Positions 50,652 through 57,829 of a stretch of DNA of 64,000 nucleotides are shown piece by piece. Source of the stretch: Aquimarina macrocephali JAMB N27 (lineage in GTDB: Bacteria > Bacteroidota > Bacteroidia > Flavobacteriales > Flavobacteriaceae); contig NZ_JACA01000005.1 in assembly GCF_000520995.1 (NCBI RefSeq), forward strand, positions 186,001 to 250,000, given 5' to 3'. Numbering within the stretch: the stretch's first letter is position 1; every line of letters starts with the position of its first letter. The notes beneath the pieces are model-generated. The model worked only from the letters and a program-made list of their open reading frames with translations, had not been told where the DNA came from and searched no databases. The position numbers and the translations under genes were made by a program.

Positions 50652-53621
50652 CTATAATTTATAGTTTAACGATATATTAAACATAGTTCCTAATTGACTA
50701 AAATGAAAACCATTATAAGTCATTTGAGAATACCTTTGGTTGAAAGTGATTAAATTAGAACGGGTTTTTAATTCTGCAGGATCATTCATAAGTACATCAC
50801 CAGCAGCGTTAAGAGATTTAAACTCCCATTCTGGTAAAACGTTTAATAGGTTATTCACATTTACAGCAACAGTAAATTTATCTGTTGCATTAAAGTTAAT
50901 CCCTAAATCGGTAACAATTTTTGGGATAAACTCAGTTTTTAAATTAGGGCCCAGACCTTGTTGTCTGAATTCTGTTTTTCCGAAATATGTATTATTTATC
51001 GAAAAACCAAATTTACCAATATCATAACTAGTTCCCAAAATCCATTTAGTCTTAGGTCTAGAAGTAAAGAATAAAGCTTCCTGAGTTAGGTTAACTACAG
51101 ATTGTCCTGCACTAGAAACAATTGCCGGGTTCTTAACGTCCCCATCTCTTTCGTTTTCTATTGTGTAATTACCAGATAAACTAAACCCAAGATTACCACC
51201 AGCAAGATTTATATTTTTATAATTAGCAACGACGTCAATACCAGAAGTTCTGGTATCTAATGCATTAACAAAAAAACTTAAATCATTTAAGTTATTGTCA
51301 TTTAGCAATTGATCTAGGCTTGTATTACCAATACTATTACCAACAGCATCGGTAGCAGTTTTTCCAATTTCGGTACTTAGTACAATCCTGTCTTCAACCT
51401 GAATATTATAATAATCAATAGTAAAGTTTATATTACTATTAATCTTAGCACCAATACCTACAGTGATATTTGTAGATTCTTCTGCATCTAATTGTGGAAT
51501 ATCTAATAATTTTGCTTGAGGAGAAACATTATTTATTAATCCACCAACTTGAATTCCTGCTCCTGGAACAAAACTATACTGCGCTTTTTGAGTATAAATT
51601 TGATGAAGTGTTGGTGCTCTAAATCCTGTAGAGATAGAGGCTCTTAATGTTAATCTATCTTCTAAAAATTTGTAGCGCGAACTCAGTTTCCACACAAAAG
51701 CATCACCAAAATCACTATAATCTTCTAATCTAACCGTACCGTTAACCAGAAAATCTTCGGTAATATCATACGCTATATCCAAATATCCACCAAAATTATA
51801 ACGATTAAAAGTTCCAGAATTTTCAGGGCTATTACCAGCAAATGAATCGGCTCCACCACCATCATACGAAGCAAGATCTCCTTCAATGATTTCAAAAGTT
51901 TCTGTTCTAAATTCTGCTCCAAAACCAATACTTATTTTATCGGTAACTAATTTTGCAATATCAATATTTCCTACACTATGTCTAAATCCAGTTCCTCCCG
52001 GATCAAATGATATGGGGCTATTTTCTCTATACAACTCAGATCCTTGTGTGAGTTCACCGGGATCTACAGAACCATTGTTATTTGTATCAATCCATGTAGA
52101 CGGAGAATATACAGTATTACGATTGTGCGAATTGTTTACTTTATAGGTTTGTGTGTTTCCACCAGTAGTATAACTTAGGTCATAATTCCAACCATTCTTT
52201 ATGGTTTTAAAACCAATAGTAGCATTATAATCATTTAGATCTCCTTCAAAAGTAGGTACATATCCAATATACTGACCATTTGGTCCATCAGGGAAAAAAT
52301 CAGCTAAGTAAGGAAAAGCAGCTTCTGTTCTCCAATATGGAGTTCTGTAATTAGCGAAGCTATTTATTTTTTTATAGACATATGCTGCATTTAGATAGAT
52401 CTGTGTATGTTTATTTATATCATACCCACCATTTACCAAAAATTTTGCTGCTGCTGTTTCTGGTGATCCATTGATATTTCCTGCATCAGGTTTGAGAGCT
52501 AAAAATTGATCAACATCTGCTCTTCCTTGTGTATTTGAAGCATTGATTTCTGCAAGTCTGGTAGTATGATTAGGAGTACCTACGTAGTTATCAATAAATT
52601 CTTGCTGAGCTTGTTCGGCTGTAAGACCTGTTAGAGTAGCTCCTCCGTTTAAAGCTTGCCCTCCAGCATCTAAATAGCTACTATAGCTATCAGGATTTGT
52701 GAAAACGAAATCATCAAATTCTCCCTGTGCATCTACAGTTCCTGGTCTGTTAGCAAGACTTACCTTAGAGAAATCTACGGTATAGTTAAAGAACCCTTTA
52801 TCTTCTCCTATAGAACTACCATTATTTAAACTAATTCCAATCGTCTCTCCATCTCCTTCAGATGTAATTCCTGATCTAATAGTCACAGAGCCTTCTTCGG
52901 GATTGTCTTTTAAAATAATATTCATTACACCTGCAATGGCATCAGAACCATATTGTGCAGATGCACCATCTCTTAATATTTCTACTCGTTTTATGGCATC
53001 TGTTGGTATTGCAGAAATATCAGAACCAGTTTCACCTCTTCCCGGAGAGGTTTGAGTATACAATAAAGCACTTAGGTTTTTACGTTTTCCATTAATAAGA
53101 ATTAGGGTTCTACTAGGTCCCATATTTCTAATCTCATAAGGATCTAATAATGAAGTAGCATCATTAACTGGTGTCTGCACAGTATTAAATGATGGTATTT
53201 TATATTGTAATGCTTTATCGAATGTAATTTGACCAGTAGAAGTTAATTCTTTTGCCGGCAATACATCAACAGGGAGCGAAGAAGTAGTATTACTTCTTGG
53301 TAGCGCTCTGGATCCAACTAAAATAATCTCATCAAGTTCTGCTCCACCACTTAATGAGATATTGATGGTTGTTTGAGAATTTACAGGTACTTCTTTAGAA
53401 TTAAAGCCTACATAGCTAAAAACTAGAATACCTTCGGGGTTAACTTCAATGCTGTATTTACCATCAAAATCGGTTGTAGAACCATTACTGGTTCCTTTTT
53501 CAATAATATTTACTCCAGGTAAAGGAGACCCATCTGCATCCGAGACGACTCCTGTTACTATCTGTTGCGAAAAGCACAGACTTGTGGATAGTACGATTAA
53601 AATAAATGCGAGTTTTTTCAT
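50652..53621 (-). CDS. TonB-dependent receptor with carboxypeptidase-D-like domain, copy 1
   Basis: A 989-residue outer-membrane receptor. Signal peptide MKKLAFILIVLSTSLCFSQQ; a CarboxypepD_reg-like domain (about 23-100, GVVSDADGSPLPGVNIIEKGTSNGSTTDFDGKYSI) precedes the plug (about 110-240, GPSRTLILINGKRKN, VEILRDGASAQYGSDAIAGVMNIIL) and the beta-barrel ending in a C-terminal ISLNYKL strand. It takes up an unknown ligand using TonB energy. No SusD-like lipoprotein gene follows. It is about one-third similar to the receptor at 54073-56694, with near-identical N-terminal and plug motifs. Confidence 0.93.
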   Translation of the reverse strand: MKKLAFILIVLSTSLCFSQQIVTGVVSDADGSPLPGVNIIEKGTSNGSTTDFDGKYSIEVNPEGILVFSYVGFNSKEVPVNSQTTINISLSGGAELDEIILVGSRALPRSNTTSSLPVDVLPAKELTSTGQITFDKALQYKIPSFNTVQTPVNDATSLLDPYEIRNMGPSRTLILINGKRKNLSALLYTQTSPGRGETGSDISAIPTDAIKRVEILRDGASAQYGSDAIAGVMNIILKDNPEEGSVTIRSGITSEGDGETIGISLNNGSSIGEDKGFFNYTVDFSKVSLANRPGTVDAQGEFDDFVFTNPDSYSSYLDAGGQALNGGATLTGLTAEQAQQEFIDNYVGTPNHTTRLAEINASNTQGRADVDQFLALKPDAGNINGSPETAAAKFLVNGGYDINKHTQIYLNAAYVYKKINSFANYRTPYWRTEAAFPYLADFFPDGPNGQYIGYVPTFEGDLNDYNATIGFKTIKNGWNYDLSYTTGGNTQTYKVNNSHNRNTVYSPSTWIDTNNNGSVDPGELTQGSELYRENSPISFDPGGTGFRHSVGNIDIAKLVTDKISIGFGAEFRTETFEIIEGDLASYDGGGADSFAGNSPENSGTFNRYNFGGYLDIAYDITEDFLVNGTVRLEDYSDFGDAFVWKLSSRYKFLEDRLTLRASISTGFRAPTLHQIYTQKAQYSFVPGAGIQVGGLINNVSPQAKLLDIPQLDAEESTNITVGIGAKINSNINFTIDYYNIQVEDRIVLSTEIGKTATDAVGNSIGNTSLDQLLNDNNLNDLSFFVNALDTRTSGIDVVANYKNINLAGGNLGFSLSGNYTIENERDGDVKNPAIVSSAGQSVVNLTQEALFFTSRPKTKWILGTSYDIGKFGFSINNTYFGKTEFRQQGLGPNLKTEFIPKIVTDLGINFNATDKFTVAVNVNNLLNVLPEWEFKSLNAAGDVLMNDPAELKTRSNLITFNQRYSQMTYNGFHFSQLGTMFNISLNYKL

Positions 53622-54072: not shown

Positions 54073-56694
54073 TTAGAAATTAAAATCTAATCTAGCATAG
54101 TAATAAGCTCCACCAAATCCCATTTGAACAGCATCCCAGTATCCACCAGCTTCTGTTTCACCATCATTTTGTTGATCGGGATATTCATTAAAAATATTGT
54201 TTCCTCCGATAGTAAACTTTAGGTTATCGGTTAGCTTGTATCCTACATTTAGGTCTGCAGTAATTTTAGCACCGTATACATCTTCTGCATCCGTGAAATC
54301 GATAAGAACAATCTCACTAAAATGTGTTAAACCAACCCCGGCATTAAATTTATTTTTGCTGTAATTGGCATTAAAAGAAAACTTACTTTCTGGAGCAGAA
54401 GCCAATAAAAATGCTTTTTCTCTTTCTCCAAAGAAGGTAGCTTGGTCTAAACCTCCATTGTTTATATCCTCAATAGTCATATTATTAATGTTTCCGGCTA
54501 GTGTTGCTGATATATTACCAAAATCAAAGTTTCCTTTCCAGGATAGTATTAAATCTAGCCCAATAGTTTCTGTATCTACACCATTGGCAAAGAATTGTGC
54601 TTCTGCCACATTTGGTATTTGAGGAGCAGCAAATGTTCCTGTTAATACAATTCTATCTTTAACATTAATATAATACCCATCTACTGTAGCTGTAAAACCA
54701 CCAAAAGTGGCTGTTGCTCCTAAGGCTCCGTTTAATGCTGTTTCTTCGTCGAGTTGTTGAATCCCAAAAGAAGCAGTTACAGGACTATTATTAGCAGATA
54801 ATAAGGTTTCTGTTGCGACTCCGCCCTGGAAATCAGTAAATCTAAGGTTGTAGTATATCTGAGCCAGAGAAGGAGCTCTAAAACCTGTACTTACAGATCC
54901 ACGAATATTAACACCTTCTGTAGCTTTAATTCTAAAAGCTAATTTACCATTAGTAGTACTTCCAAAATCACTATATTCTTCAAACCTTCCTGCAACGCCT
55001 AATAAAAAACTATCAGAAATATCTAATTCTGCATCTGCATATATTGAAAGGTTAGATCTTGAACGATCTACTTCGTTTGCAGGACTATACCCGGGGAACC
55101 CTTGTGATCCACCAGGTCTCAATTCTCCAGAAAGTGGATCGGTAGGCTGTGTTTGACTTCCTGGATCTGTAATAGGTAAGCCATTAACATCATATGTTGC
55201 ATAAGACCCTTCTTCGCCAGCAAAAATTTCGAAATTTTCAATTCTGTACTCTGTACCAAAAGCGATGTTTAATCCTTTAAGAATGTTTGGATAATATTTA
55301 GAAAGGTCAAGACTGGTTGTATTTTGACTTAGGCTGTGTCCACCAGCATCAAAATCTGTTGGTGAAGAGCCCTGTAACGAGGCATTTAAAGTTCCTTTTA
55401 TGAAATAATGAAAATTATTTTTACCCCAGGTATTATTAATATCAATTTTCCAACCACCTTCAGTTTCGGTTCTAACACCAGCAGAAACAGAATTATCGAT
55501 AATATTTGATGTTATCCTTGGTGTAAAACCGTTTGAATAAATAGAAGGTACAACACGTTCTCCATCATTACGAGTAAATGCAAAAGCATCGGTATCACGA
55601 TAATTTCTACCTCCAAAAGCGTATATTTCAGTTTTTTTGGATATAGGAATTGCAGCATTAGCAAAGAAATTAAAACCATCTATAGCAGCCTCTCCAAAAC
55701 CTCTCCTGAAATCAAAACCAGGGCGTAGTGTTTTGTTTTTGCTAATATATTCTGTAGTAAAGTTTGCGTAACCATCTTCTCCGATTTCTACTCCATAGTT
55801 AGCGGTTATTTTTACTGATCCTCCATCAAGGCTTTTATCATCAGCAATGATGTTTCCATCATTTTCGGTATCGAGTCGATTTCCATCGGTATTAGGAGTT
55901 CCCGCAGGAAAATCTCCTTTTGCATTCGCATTATAAGCACCATAACTGATACTTCCTGTTAATTTATTTACATTATCTTTTAGAACAATATTAATAACAC
56001 CAGCAATAGCATCAGATCCATACTGTGCTGCAGCGCCATCTCTTAAAACTTCAATTCTTTTTATAGCAGATGCAGGAATAGCATTGAGATCTGTTCCAGA
56101 GTTCCCTCTTCCACGAGTTCCAAAAACATTAATCAAAGAAGAAGAATGCCTTCTTTTTCCGTTTATTAAAACCAAAGTTTGATCGGGTCCAAGACCACGT
56201 AAAGTTGCTGGGTCGATATGATCTGCACCATCTGATCCAGATTGTTTATTAGCATTAAAAGAAGGAGCGGCATACTGCAAGAGTTCATTAATTTCTATTT
56301 TACCACTTTTGGTAATAACGTCTTGCATATCGATAATGTCAATTGCTACAGGAGTATCGGTTGCAGTTCTTTTTGGACTTCTGGATCCAACCACAATAAT
56401 AGTACTTAATGCTTCTCCTTCGAGGAGGGTGACATCAATTTTTTCTTGTGTTCCTACTTCTATTTCTTGTGTCTCAAAACCAATATAGCTATATACAAGA
56501 ATAGCATTTGCATCTATGGCAATTGAGTAATTACCTTGACTGTCTGTTGTTGTACCTTTTGCAGATCCTTTTTCTATAATATTTACATAAGGTATTGGAG
56601 ATCCTGAAGAGTCAGTAACTGTTCCTGTTACTACTTGTTGACTAAAACACCAACTGGTGAATAAGCAAAATAAAATGAGTGTGATTTTTTTCAT
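54073..56694 (-). CDS. TonB-dependent receptor with carboxypeptidase-D-like domain, copy 2
   Basis: An 873-residue outer-membrane receptor with signal peptide MKKITLILFCLFTSWCFSQQ, CarboxypepD_reg-like domain (about 23-95, SGSPIPYVNIIEKGSAKGTTTDSQGNYSI), plug with LRGLGPDQTLVLINGKRRH and IKRIEVLRDGAAAQYGSDAIAGVINIVL, and a barrel ending in the aromatic strand YYARLDFNF. Substrate unknown. It is paralogous to copy 1, shorter by 116 residues in the barrel, and no SusD-like partner is seen. The four-cysteine peptide gene lies 244 bp upstream on the same strand. Confidence 0.93.
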   Translation of the reverse strand: MKKITLILFCLFTSWCFSQQVVTGTVTDSSGSPIPYVNIIEKGSAKGTTTDSQGNYSIAIDANAILVYSYIGFETQEIEVGTQEKIDVTLLEGEALSTIIVVGSRSPKRTATDTPVAIDIIDMQDVITKSGKIEINELLQYAAPSFNANKQSGSDGADHIDPATLRGLGPDQTLVLINGKRRHSSSLINVFGTRGRGNSGTDLNAIPASAIKRIEVLRDGAAAQYGSDAIAGVINIVLKDNVNKLTGSISYGAYNANAKGDFPAGTPNTDGNRLDTENDGNIIADDKSLDGGSVKITANYGVEIGEDGYANFTTEYISKNKTLRPGFDFRRGFGEAAIDGFNFFANAAIPISKKTEIYAFGGRNYRDTDAFAFTRNDGERVVPSIYSNGFTPRITSNIIDNSVSAGVRTETEGGWKIDINNTWGKNNFHYFIKGTLNASLQGSSPTDFDAGGHSLSQNTTSLDLSKYYPNILKGLNIAFGTEYRIENFEIFAGEEGSYATYDVNGLPITDPGSQTQPTDPLSGELRPGGSQGFPGYSPANEVDRSRSNLSIYADAELDISDSFLLGVAGRFEEYSDFGSTTNGKLAFRIKATEGVNIRGSVSTGFRAPSLAQIYYNLRFTDFQGGVATETLLSANNSPVTASFGIQQLDEETALNGALGATATFGGFTATVDGYYINVKDRIVLTGTFAAPQIPNVAEAQFFANGVDTETIGLDLILSWKGNFDFGNISATLAGNINNMTIEDINNGGLDQATFFGEREKAFLLASAPESKFSFNANYSKNKFNAGVGLTHFSEIVLIDFTDAEDVYGAKITADLNVGYKLTDNLKFTIGGNNIFNEYPDQQNDGETEAGGYWDAVQMGFGGAYYYARLDFNF

Positions 56695-56938: not shown

Positions 56939-57106
56939 TTATACACACGGAGAATTCCATGGTAATGCACATAGGGGGGCACTCCATTCACCACCACAGG
57001 CAAGACAATCTTGTTCATTTCTAGGCCATCCAGAACCCTTAATAATCTGAAGTTGTTTTCTGTTAAGTTTCTGAACTCCTTTAAAATTTAAAATGGTTTG
57101 TAACAT
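56939..57106 (-). CDS. Four-cysteine peptide with double-glycine-like leader (RiPP/bacteriocin-like precursor)
   Basis: A 55-codon gene read on the minus strand with ATG at 57106 and TAA at 56941-56939. The product begins MLQTILNFKGVQKLNRKQLQ and continues IIKGSGWPRNEQDC, so the leader resembles the L-x-K-x-x-x-K-x-I-x-G-G form of Bacteroidota secreted peptides, with GSG in place of GGG at 24-26. The core holds C34, C37, C46 and C54, three Trp (27, 41, 50) and two Gly (CGG). It is likely cut after G24 or G26 and exported by a peptidase-containing ABC transporter, but no such transporter, modifying enzyme or immunity gene is adjacent. I recall similar short GG-leader peptides in flavobacteria, but cannot verify the family. 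Confidence 0.7.
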   Translation of the reverse strand: MLQTILNFKGVQKLNRKQLQIIKGSGWPRNEQDCLACGGEWSAPLCALPWNSPCV

Positions 57107-57251: not shown

Positions 57252-57278
57252 AAAGCCGAGTCCTATAGACTCGGCTTT
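57252..57278 (-). terminator. Intrinsic terminator after the small secreted orphan gene
   Basis: GCCGAGTC (57255-57262) pairs with GACTCGGC (57268-57275), extended by AAA/TTT, 5-nt loop and T-run on the minus strand. It isolates the peptide gene from the upstream transcript. Confidence 0.88.
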
Positions 57279-57304: not shown

Positions 57305-57829
57305 TTAGTTTGCTTGATATTTATAGACAATTGTAGTTACCTTGTCTATTTTAGAATCATACATTTCTAGAATAAAATTTTTATCTGTATCAAAATGCCC
57401 AAGACAATTATCATTACCTCCTGAGTTTACAATATAATACCCGTTCTTTAGTGGCCTTACTTTAGCGACTTTATCTCCGGATTTATTTAAAAAAGTTATT
57501 ATAAAACCTTTCTCATCAGCAACTTTAGTGTAACCCACCATATCCGAAGTAGTTTCAAACTTTTGTACTACTACTTCATCATCTTCATAAATAGCGGATT
57601 GATTAATTTGATCTTCACCGTCAGGGCTAAACGTTATTTTGCTTTTTTTAGTAATAACTTCCTGTTTTTTAATAACTTTTTCTTCACCATTAGGTCCTTT
57701 GATACGAATCGTTTTAGTCACTGTTTCTTGTGAAGAATTTTGTTTATCTTTTTTTTCGTCAGATTGCGCGTGATTAACAGCAGTACAAATCATAAATAAT
57801 GCTGTAATTAGAGTCTTTAAAGCTTTCAT
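57305..57829 (-). CDS. Secreted protein of unknown function
   Basis: A 174-residue exported protein (signal peptide MKALKTLITALFMICTAVNHAQ). Residues 23-80 are charged with repeats of the T-K-T-I-R-I-K-G-P-N-G-E-E-K type; the C-terminal half (GFIITFLNKSGDKVAKVRPLKNGYYIVNS) looks beta-rich. I do not recognise a family. It stands alone with a terminator behind and the ychF promoter divergently upstream. Confidence 0.7.
   Translation of the reverse strand: MKALKTLITALFMICTAVNHAQSDEKKDKQNSSQETVTKTIRIKGPNGEEKVIKKQEVITKKSKITFSPDGEDQINQSAIYEDDEVVVQKFETTSDMVGYTKVADEKGFIITFLNKSGDKVAKVRPLKNGYYIVNSGGNDNCLGHFDTDKNFILEMYDSKIDKVTTIVYKYQAN

Follow-up and report, generated by a model that had tools for sequence, protein, structure and literature searches.

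By architecture, the closest known system to the small peptide gene studied here is that of the bacteroidetocins (class IIf), for which the sections of the source at hand describe a GG leader, four cysteines, a thiol oxidoreductase and a PCAT exporter (PMC6671954). Bacteroidetocins A and B have four cysteines, other members of the wider set two or more, deletion of the thiol oxidoreductase attenuates the toxin and, according to the same sections, an immunity gene was not found (PMC6671954). The focal gene, located in a 64-kb stretch of the genome of Aquimarina macrocephali JAMB N27 (64,000 nucleotides, hereafter the window), shares with this system, as far as those sections describe it, the double-glycine leader, a small four-cysteine core, a PCAT, a thiol oxidoreductase and the occurrence in Bacteroidota. 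Its leader, however, comprises 25 residues ending in GS (GG in several orthologues) instead of 15–16 ending in GG, its family consists of dispersed genes instead of a compact four-gene locus with a 5-TM protein, and its oxidoreductase is a C39-like/VKOR/thioredoxin fusion, perhaps a further difference. Tens of precursors per genome, many of them preceded by a shared RNA element, are likewise unlike the bacteroidetocins of these sections, and the focal gene does not lie in a single bacteroidetocin-type region with PCAT and oxidoreductase. Since leader length and gene organisation differ from what the source sections report and the likeness is drawn from architecture, we do not file the peptide as a bacteroidetocin, although it is probably produced like one.

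Further comparisons are looser. The NCBIfam model NF047798 (leader_Chryseo, bacteriocin-like) contains a similar short GG leader motif and aligns to residues 12–24 of the focal peptide, at 13 bits against a cut-off of 23.5 and with a model of 18 leader positions only; this sub-threshold match was the sole one in NCBIfam, Pfam gave none, and the YGNGVXC motif of class IIa bacteriocins is absent from the focal sequence. Known C39/PCAT-HlyD exporters feature the same domains as the exporter considered below, but the proposed substrates in Aquimarina are mostly encoded far away. Prochlorosins and conotoxins illustrate how one machinery or one conserved leader can go along with many variable cores; given the different chemistry and organisms, this is an analogy only and no homology is claimed.

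We consider it likely that the focal gene encodes the precursor of a small secreted disulfide peptide, which is served in trans by a shared PCAT-HlyD exporter and an oxidoreductase. The 25-residue leader would direct the precursor to a pathway whose genes lie in other parts of the genome, where a PCAT (734 aa) with its HlyD adaptor could cut after Gly-Ser and export the 30-residue core, while a fused C39-like/VKOR/DsbA-like oxidoreductase, whose C39-like domain has no cysteine and probably reads the leader, could close two disulfides. A single pathway of this kind would serve dozens of mostly unlinked precursors, sharing the leader and differing in their cores. The first-pass annotation had reported no visible export or maturation partners, which is true within the window (the C39 hits of this genome lie on other contigs, and the window contains no C39 peptidase-ABC transporter), but an oxidoreductase and an exporter can be named in trans. 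The gene thus looks partnerless as an effect of the window, its candidate partners being encoded elsewhere, and the earlier suggestion that a transporter elsewhere processes the peptide gained support from a 734-aa C39 PCAT that tracks the leader family and is its likely processor.

Translation of the focal frame (MLQTILNFKGVQKLNRKQLQIIKGSGWPRNEQDCLACGGEWSAPLCALPWNSPCV; Table 1) agrees exactly with the 55-codon minus-strand frame described before, including cysteines 34, 37, 46 and 54 and three tryptophans (27, 41 and 50). Sequence comparison confirmed a real gene under purifying selection: dN/dS was 0 to 0.26 for the own sequence against each of 11 gap-free orthologues, where a value near 1 had been named as the mark of non-coding drift, and the 90 differences in the six nearest orthologues fall 65/17/8 on codon positions 3/1/2. 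Relatives in Aquimarina were already recovered by a single-sequence search with the focal peptide, and near-identical public copies exist in Aquimarina sp. Aq78 (100%), AU58 and A. atlantica (both 98%) and A. megaterium (96%). A profile, A1, built from an alignment of 17 focal homologues from Aquimarina genomes, matched 19 of 66 Aquimarina genomes (own included) at E ≤ 1.2e-19, these E-values being partly circular since the A1 rows were drawn from the same 66 genomes. The homologue search proposed earlier thus returned strong matches with conserved leader and cysteines; the four cysteines are invariant in 17/17 rows, and the orthologue alignment agrees with the earlier description of a GG-type leader peptide with a four-cysteine core, which when mature would carry two disulfides. 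For the predicted mature peptide GWPRNEQDCLACGGEWSAPLCALPWNSPCV, we computed a mass of 3254.383 Da with two disulfides and 3258.414 Da in reduced form. The AlphaFold model of the focal peptide was poor (mean pLDDT 63.9) and was not interpreted.

Table 1. Positions of the focal gene and of adjacent features in the window.
Feature	Position	Strand	Basis
Focal gene of the precursor peptide (55 codons and a stop)	56939..57106	-	Translation, orthologues, dN/dS
Leader peptide, residues 1-25 (MLQ...IIKGS)	57032..57106	-	Alignment A1; predicted cleavage site
Predicted mature core, 30 residues GWPR...SPCV, Cys 34/37/46/54	56942..57031	-	A1 alignment
CTTAAAACC box directly 5' of focal start codon	57114..57122	-	Common to other family genes
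Intrinsic-terminator-like hairpin between upstream 174-aa gene and focal gene	57252..57278	-	
174-aa protein, signal-peptide-like N-terminus by eye	57305..57829	-	Context neighbour

A terminator-like hairpin separates the 174-aa gene from the focal gene, which is therefore likely a transcription unit of its own; one hairpin was observed upstream of the focal gene against a mean of 0.4 (sd 0.7) in shuffles. The 174-aa gene, whose product gave no Pfam match, adjoins the peptide gene in 15 of 18 orthologue loci checked and was not found in the other three (L019, L021, L022); its retention perhaps reflects vertical synteny only. On the other side, two adjacent TonB-receptor-like genes (by eye; window 50652-53621 and 54073-56694), approximately 42% identical over the aligned N-terminal part, adjoin the focal gene. 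In locus L012, the peptide is followed by a gene that is more similar to the other one of the two, and the 3-kb loci L018 and L020 gave neither.

A G/A-G/S pair after the leader, which is kept in the orthologues, is a feature of double-glycine (C39-processed) peptides. Orthologues read KGSGW, KGGGW, KGGAW, HGGRW, HGGGW or KAGGW at this site, with a few others, e.g., KGRGF (alignment A1), and A1 row L017 reads GRG at the processing position. The glycine pair had been given as GSG before; the GG-type leader stands, but since orthologues carry GG or AG at that place, it is better taken as a Gly-Ser pair at which processing occurs, with Gly as the next residue. A C39-type cut is therefore likely to fall at Gly-Ser|Gly-Trp and would release the 30-residue core.

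The focal gene is a member of a large leader family and not an orphan, at variance with the stand-alone peptide that had been considered: 23 A1 hits occur in the own genome at E ≤ 1e-3, and at the same threshold 52 of 66 Aquimarina genomes are leader-positive, with a maximum of 39 hits in one genome. In the 64-kb window, by comparison, a strict GG-leader plus cysteine expression matched the focal ORF alone on both strands. From the 38 own-genome A1 matches at E ≤ 10 we tabulated 28 precursors (five with E 0.002–0.05), leaving out eight without a locus and two with an unclear start (L075, L076). Their common leader type is MLxNILNLxGVxxLxKxxQxxIxGG, and the number of core cysteines is 4, 6 or 8 in 27 precursors and 7 in one. 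Cores change faster than leaders, as shown by median pairwise identities of 0.48 for leaders and 0.26 for cores (378 pairs); positive selection is no part of this claim. Within the own genome's C48 tandem array, dN is 0.02–0.05 for leaders and 0.37–0.81 for cores, with core dS (0.67–1.40, one pair not computable) mostly above leader dS (0.33–0.73), and the C11 array is mixed, with core dN of 0.00–0.82 and one pair with identical cores. Family genes also share upstream sequence: of 27 own family genes, 11, the focal one among them, have CTTAAAAC within 30 nt 5' of the start, compared with 0 of 92 large ORFs, and TTAAAAC occurs in the same stretch in 17 of these 27 versus 2 of the 92. Aside from the variable cores, one near-unchanged core, C[ND]P[AN]L[SN]CCYHNG[TY]TWVQGPPCF, was seen in 18 genomes in a peptide adjoining an oxidoreductase gene (L090, L092-L095, L097-L100, L111, L113-L115, L118-L120, L122, L123), and is a candidate for a conserved signal.

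As first partner, we propose P0002, a 543-aa protein adjoining the C48 array. It matches Pfam VKOR with 47.1 bits (cut-off 27.5) and Thioredoxin_4 with 23.9 bits, while its C39-like score of 17.2 bits is below the cut-off of 22. Among 33 oxidoreductase members scanned singly at E ≤ 0.01, VKOR was matched in 33, Thioredoxin_4 in 32 and Peptidase_C39 in 31 (best E 6.3e-9), the match beginning no earlier than position 28 of the C39 profile among the members listed with ranges. The six cysteines of P0002 comprise two within the VKOR match, the VKOR CxxC and the thioredoxin CxxC, and, as expected for a VKOR, C193, C201, C268 and C271 are invariant in alignment A4. Its first cysteine is residue 206, in the VKOR part; with no cysteine before it to act as the catalytic one, the C39-like domain, as read from the sequence, cannot be a cysteine peptidase. 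HlyB has a C39-like domain that binds the leader, and by analogy the cysteine-free domain probably reads the leader as well.

Structure searches used the model of a 99%-identical orthologue of P0002 (pLDDT 81.9), which matched ScsC/DsbA proteins over 161 residues (Z 17.3, rmsd 2.8) and Synechococcus VKOR over 129 residues (Z 14.2, rmsd 2.6). The C39-like region was covered by PCAT1 alone among 50 structural rows (Z 12.6, 161 residues), a match that, at an rmsd of 19.4, was not used for the C39 reading. When the C39-like domain was searched as a profile against the PDB, no C39 was recovered; matches to 22 LEDGF/PSIP1 sequences (E 2e-4 to 4e-3) and to a single histidyl-tRNA synthetase were rejected as spurious and are of no help to the C39 reading.

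Candidate for the second partner is a PCAT of 734 aa encoded on contig C20 of the own genome, which matches C39, ABC_membrane and ABC_tran in full and has a 430-aa HlyD-family gene nearby; a GG peptide was not found in the 18 kb around it, and in this genome neither oxidoreductase nor exporter adjoins the focal gene. Both partners co-occur with the leader family in per-genome counts that ignore phylogeny and genome size: the oxidoreductase was found at E ≤ 1e-150 in 48 of 66 Aquimarina genomes, all 48 leader-positive, and the PCAT at ≥ 80% identity in 50 of 66 (a fragment in G062), again all leader-positive. Four leader-positive genomes have no oxidoreductase at this threshold (G013, G017, G023, G036), and in three of them a diverged copy adjoins the exporter. 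Among the 16 genomes without the 734-aa PCAT, leader hits occur in two (G046 and G013, both incomplete, one hit each), and the 14 leader-negative genomes measure 1.9–4.4 Mb, five being <90% complete. Strict GG peptides lie ≤ 1.5 kb downstream of the oxidoreductase in 25 of 48 Aquimarina loci. In eight Aquimarina genomes, chosen for the known adjacency of oxidase and exporter (L261-L268), a diverged oxidase (30–32% identical to P0002) directly precedes the PCAT, with HlyD after it. The own genome encodes two more PCATs, and it is probably the 734-aa PCAT rather than one of these that would export the family peptides. The other PCAT clusters (L082 and L080, contigs C1 and C11) carry other GG leaders; in one, a second VKOR protein is accompanied by lantibiotic dehydratase halves (PF04738, PF14028), and the other contains a LanC-like protein (PF05147, 136 bits).

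At E ≤ 1e-4, A1 matched 18 of 299 family genomes, two of the 18 in Aquimarina, and the four closest other-genus focal homologues (G411, G201, G302, G420; E ≤ 3.5e-19) lie ≤ 1.3 kb from an oxidase gene with which they share the strand; three are downstream of it, the one in G302 upstream. No other evidence ties the focal peptide to the pathway as strongly as this adjacency. The conserved-neighbour check proposed earlier was thus borne out for the oxidoreductase (4/4), but no PCAT734 or HlyD430 match occurred in the 10–12 kb around these homologues (L257-L260). With PCAT734 not matched near them, the case for the exporter comes from co-occurrence and from five other clusters, and its putative role in the focal pathway is supported more indirectly. 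In those clusters, from five genera (L270-L274), oxidase, several GG peptides, a PCAT (73–76% identical) and HlyD form one cluster. Of 21 tested non-Aquimarina genomes positive for element or leader, 20 have a P0002 homologue (exception G152), against none of 18 tested negatives, which were not a random choice; the 21 were taken from 33 positives, those left out being element-positive (G157, G162, G252, G319, G328, G369, G400) or positive for the leader only (G077, G193, G200, G262, G386).

Many sister genes are preceded by an element of the form AGACAyAAA-stem-TGTCTnTAAAwG-stem approximately 61 nt 5' of the start (L165 and L182-L201 in the own genome, L152-L181 in the genus, L203-L220 in the family). 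First copies were collected with a pattern that made no demand on the variable helix (49 distinct). Four were dropped by hand as chance (L004, L068, L087 at 6824, L093 at 6873), three having no peptide ORF downstream and L068 one 104 nt on. In 26 diverse copies (MAFFT alignment A3), the variable helix showed 30 double-sided cells versus 12.0 in shuffles (reached in 0/500), and its covariation score was 0.296 versus 0.016–0.147 when slid. With permuted 3' arms, the observed mean helix of 6.8 was reached in 0/2000; L107 was dropped before this permutation, as only two pairs were parsed, although five pairs with a gap of two can form between its arms. Among 104 distinct copies (A6), 123 double-sided cells contrast with 27.9 (sd 7.7) in shuffles (0/500), in an alignment fitted to model R1, which was trained on copies near peptides; whole-genome scans with it were unrestricted. 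Pairs with change on both sides were not above shuffles (351/500 on A3, 101/500 on A6), nor were further pair types on A3 (37/500). The GACA/TGTC arms are invariant on A3, and on A6 their four pairs show one double-sided and eight one-sided pairing-keeping changes next to four breaking cells, so that a second helix, and hence an H-type pseudoknot, is likely from these alignments.

Whole-genome scans located the element in 53 of 66 Aquimarina genomes (E ≤ 0.1) and in 29 of 299 family genomes (E ≤ 0.01), 27 of these outside Aquimarina. The 21 own copies with E < 0.05 precede GG-leader small ORFs (17), one broken leader gene and three lipoprotein-like genes, and the best copies in 29 other Aquimarina genomes lie upstream of GG-leader ORFs in 27. 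At 18 family loci outside Aquimarina, 13 copies are clearly before a GG-leader ORF, two before a short one and three before none by script, and 109 distinct contexts comprise 94 GG-type small ORFs (by a loose rule), 4 large ORFs, 3 others and 8 with none. In tested non-Aquimarina genomes, 22 of 33 oxidase genes have an element 25–124 nt past the aligned end, counted with part of the element coordinate list. Leaders behind the element include lanthipeptide-like ones (by eye), and the element therefore marks GG peptides in general; G022 has leaders and no element hit, G003 and G052 the reverse. An Rfam search of seven element-bearing loci gave no match on the element, matches there falling elsewhere, and a further scan gave one partial overlap on the opposite strand (E 7.8); the element is apparently undescribed. 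The promoter box TAnnTTTG, a Bacteroidota motif, is absent from the 70 nt before 65 copies. Short palindromes (e.g., TTCGCGAA or CTTGCAAGG) occur directly 5' of the element at L061, L087, L143, L144 and L222 and are a possible regulator site. Lipoprotein-like genes (by eye) follow approximately 60 nt behind the element at L187, L190, L193 and L158, and the L187 ORF starts with the first GG-leader residues (MLSNILNLTNGKT), as if a regulatory region had been captured.

The focal gene itself has no element: the model found no match in the 64-kb window at E ≤ 0.1, which rules the element out as part of this gene. It is present at the other-genus homologues G411 and G201 (L221, L222), was not seen at G302 and G420, and is carried by two divergent same-genus homologues (L022, L149). 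Loss of the element from the focal gene in the main Aquimarina clade would be the simplest reading.

As to function, antagonism of related bacteria seems slightly likelier than signalling, each at somewhat below an even chance. Tentatively, the product could be a class IIf-like antibacterial peptide acting on related bacteria with no dedicated immunity gene; GG leader, four cysteines, thiol oxidoreductase and PCAT resemble the bacteroidetocin architecture in the sections at hand (PMC6671954), and the near-constant leaders and diverging cores of the C48 array look as if from an arms race. The focal core, however, is under strong purifying selection in a mostly fixed chromosomal place and has a net charge of -2, and positive selection is not established, given the mostly higher core dS in C48 and the mixed C11 array. 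A core kept across species at such low dN/dS and the 174-aa neighbour kept in 15/18 loci would rather suit a secreted signal or a matrix/surface peptide with a conserved receptor, the paralogues being different signals; this we hold with a little less confidence still, as nothing next to the focal gene was recognised as a receptor or sensor and the sister cores vary more than their leaders.

Other readings concern what the sequences are. An enzymatically crosslinked RiPP core (lanthipeptide, sactipeptide) devoid of disulfides could be imagined from the LanC-like protein and lantibiotic dehydratase halves of the other own PCAT clusters, but is improbable in view of even cysteine numbers in 27/28 precursors, the linkage of homologues to a VKOR-DsbA-like oxidase and a focal core with two Ser and no Thr. 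That the frame is merely spurious, or decaying, has a negligible probability: the absent Pfam and sub-threshold NCBIfam matches would allow it, yet dN/dS, the codon-position pattern, invariant cysteines, the conserved neighbour and homologues adjoining the oxidoreductase contradict it. For the sister-gene element, a DNA operator instead of an RNA structure would account for the near-fixed distance to the start codon (GACA to ATG 55–64 nt in 85 of 94 copies before GG-type ORFs) and for the hardly varying GACA/TGTC arms; we regard this as unlikely, because the variable arms keep pairing while changing in both alignments and permuted 3' arms never reach the observed helix length. A disulfide peptide served in trans remains our preferred reading of the focal gene.

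Beyond this gene, we are evenly divided on a wider proposal, namely a modular diversification system of Flavobacteriaceae, in which a leader-reading oxidase and a PCAT-HlyD exporter would handle tens of even-cysteine peptides per genome, many of their mRNAs being under joint control of a new H-type pseudoknot in the 5' leader, with the focal gene as a conserved but orphaned member from which the pseudoknot was lost. Its logic would be that of conotoxins, with conserved leaders and fast-changing cores, scattered or arrayed. Independently of this proposal, an apparently partnerless small ORF becomes an entry to a hidden secreted peptidome with nameable export and disulfide machinery. Should leaders indeed be read by the oxidase through its C39-like domain, disulfide formation would be leader-guided, for which we know of no other system and found nothing relevant among the open-licence literature searched. 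The element upstream of the sister genes, in turn, would represent a new small RNA structure, and its regulon would be easy to test.
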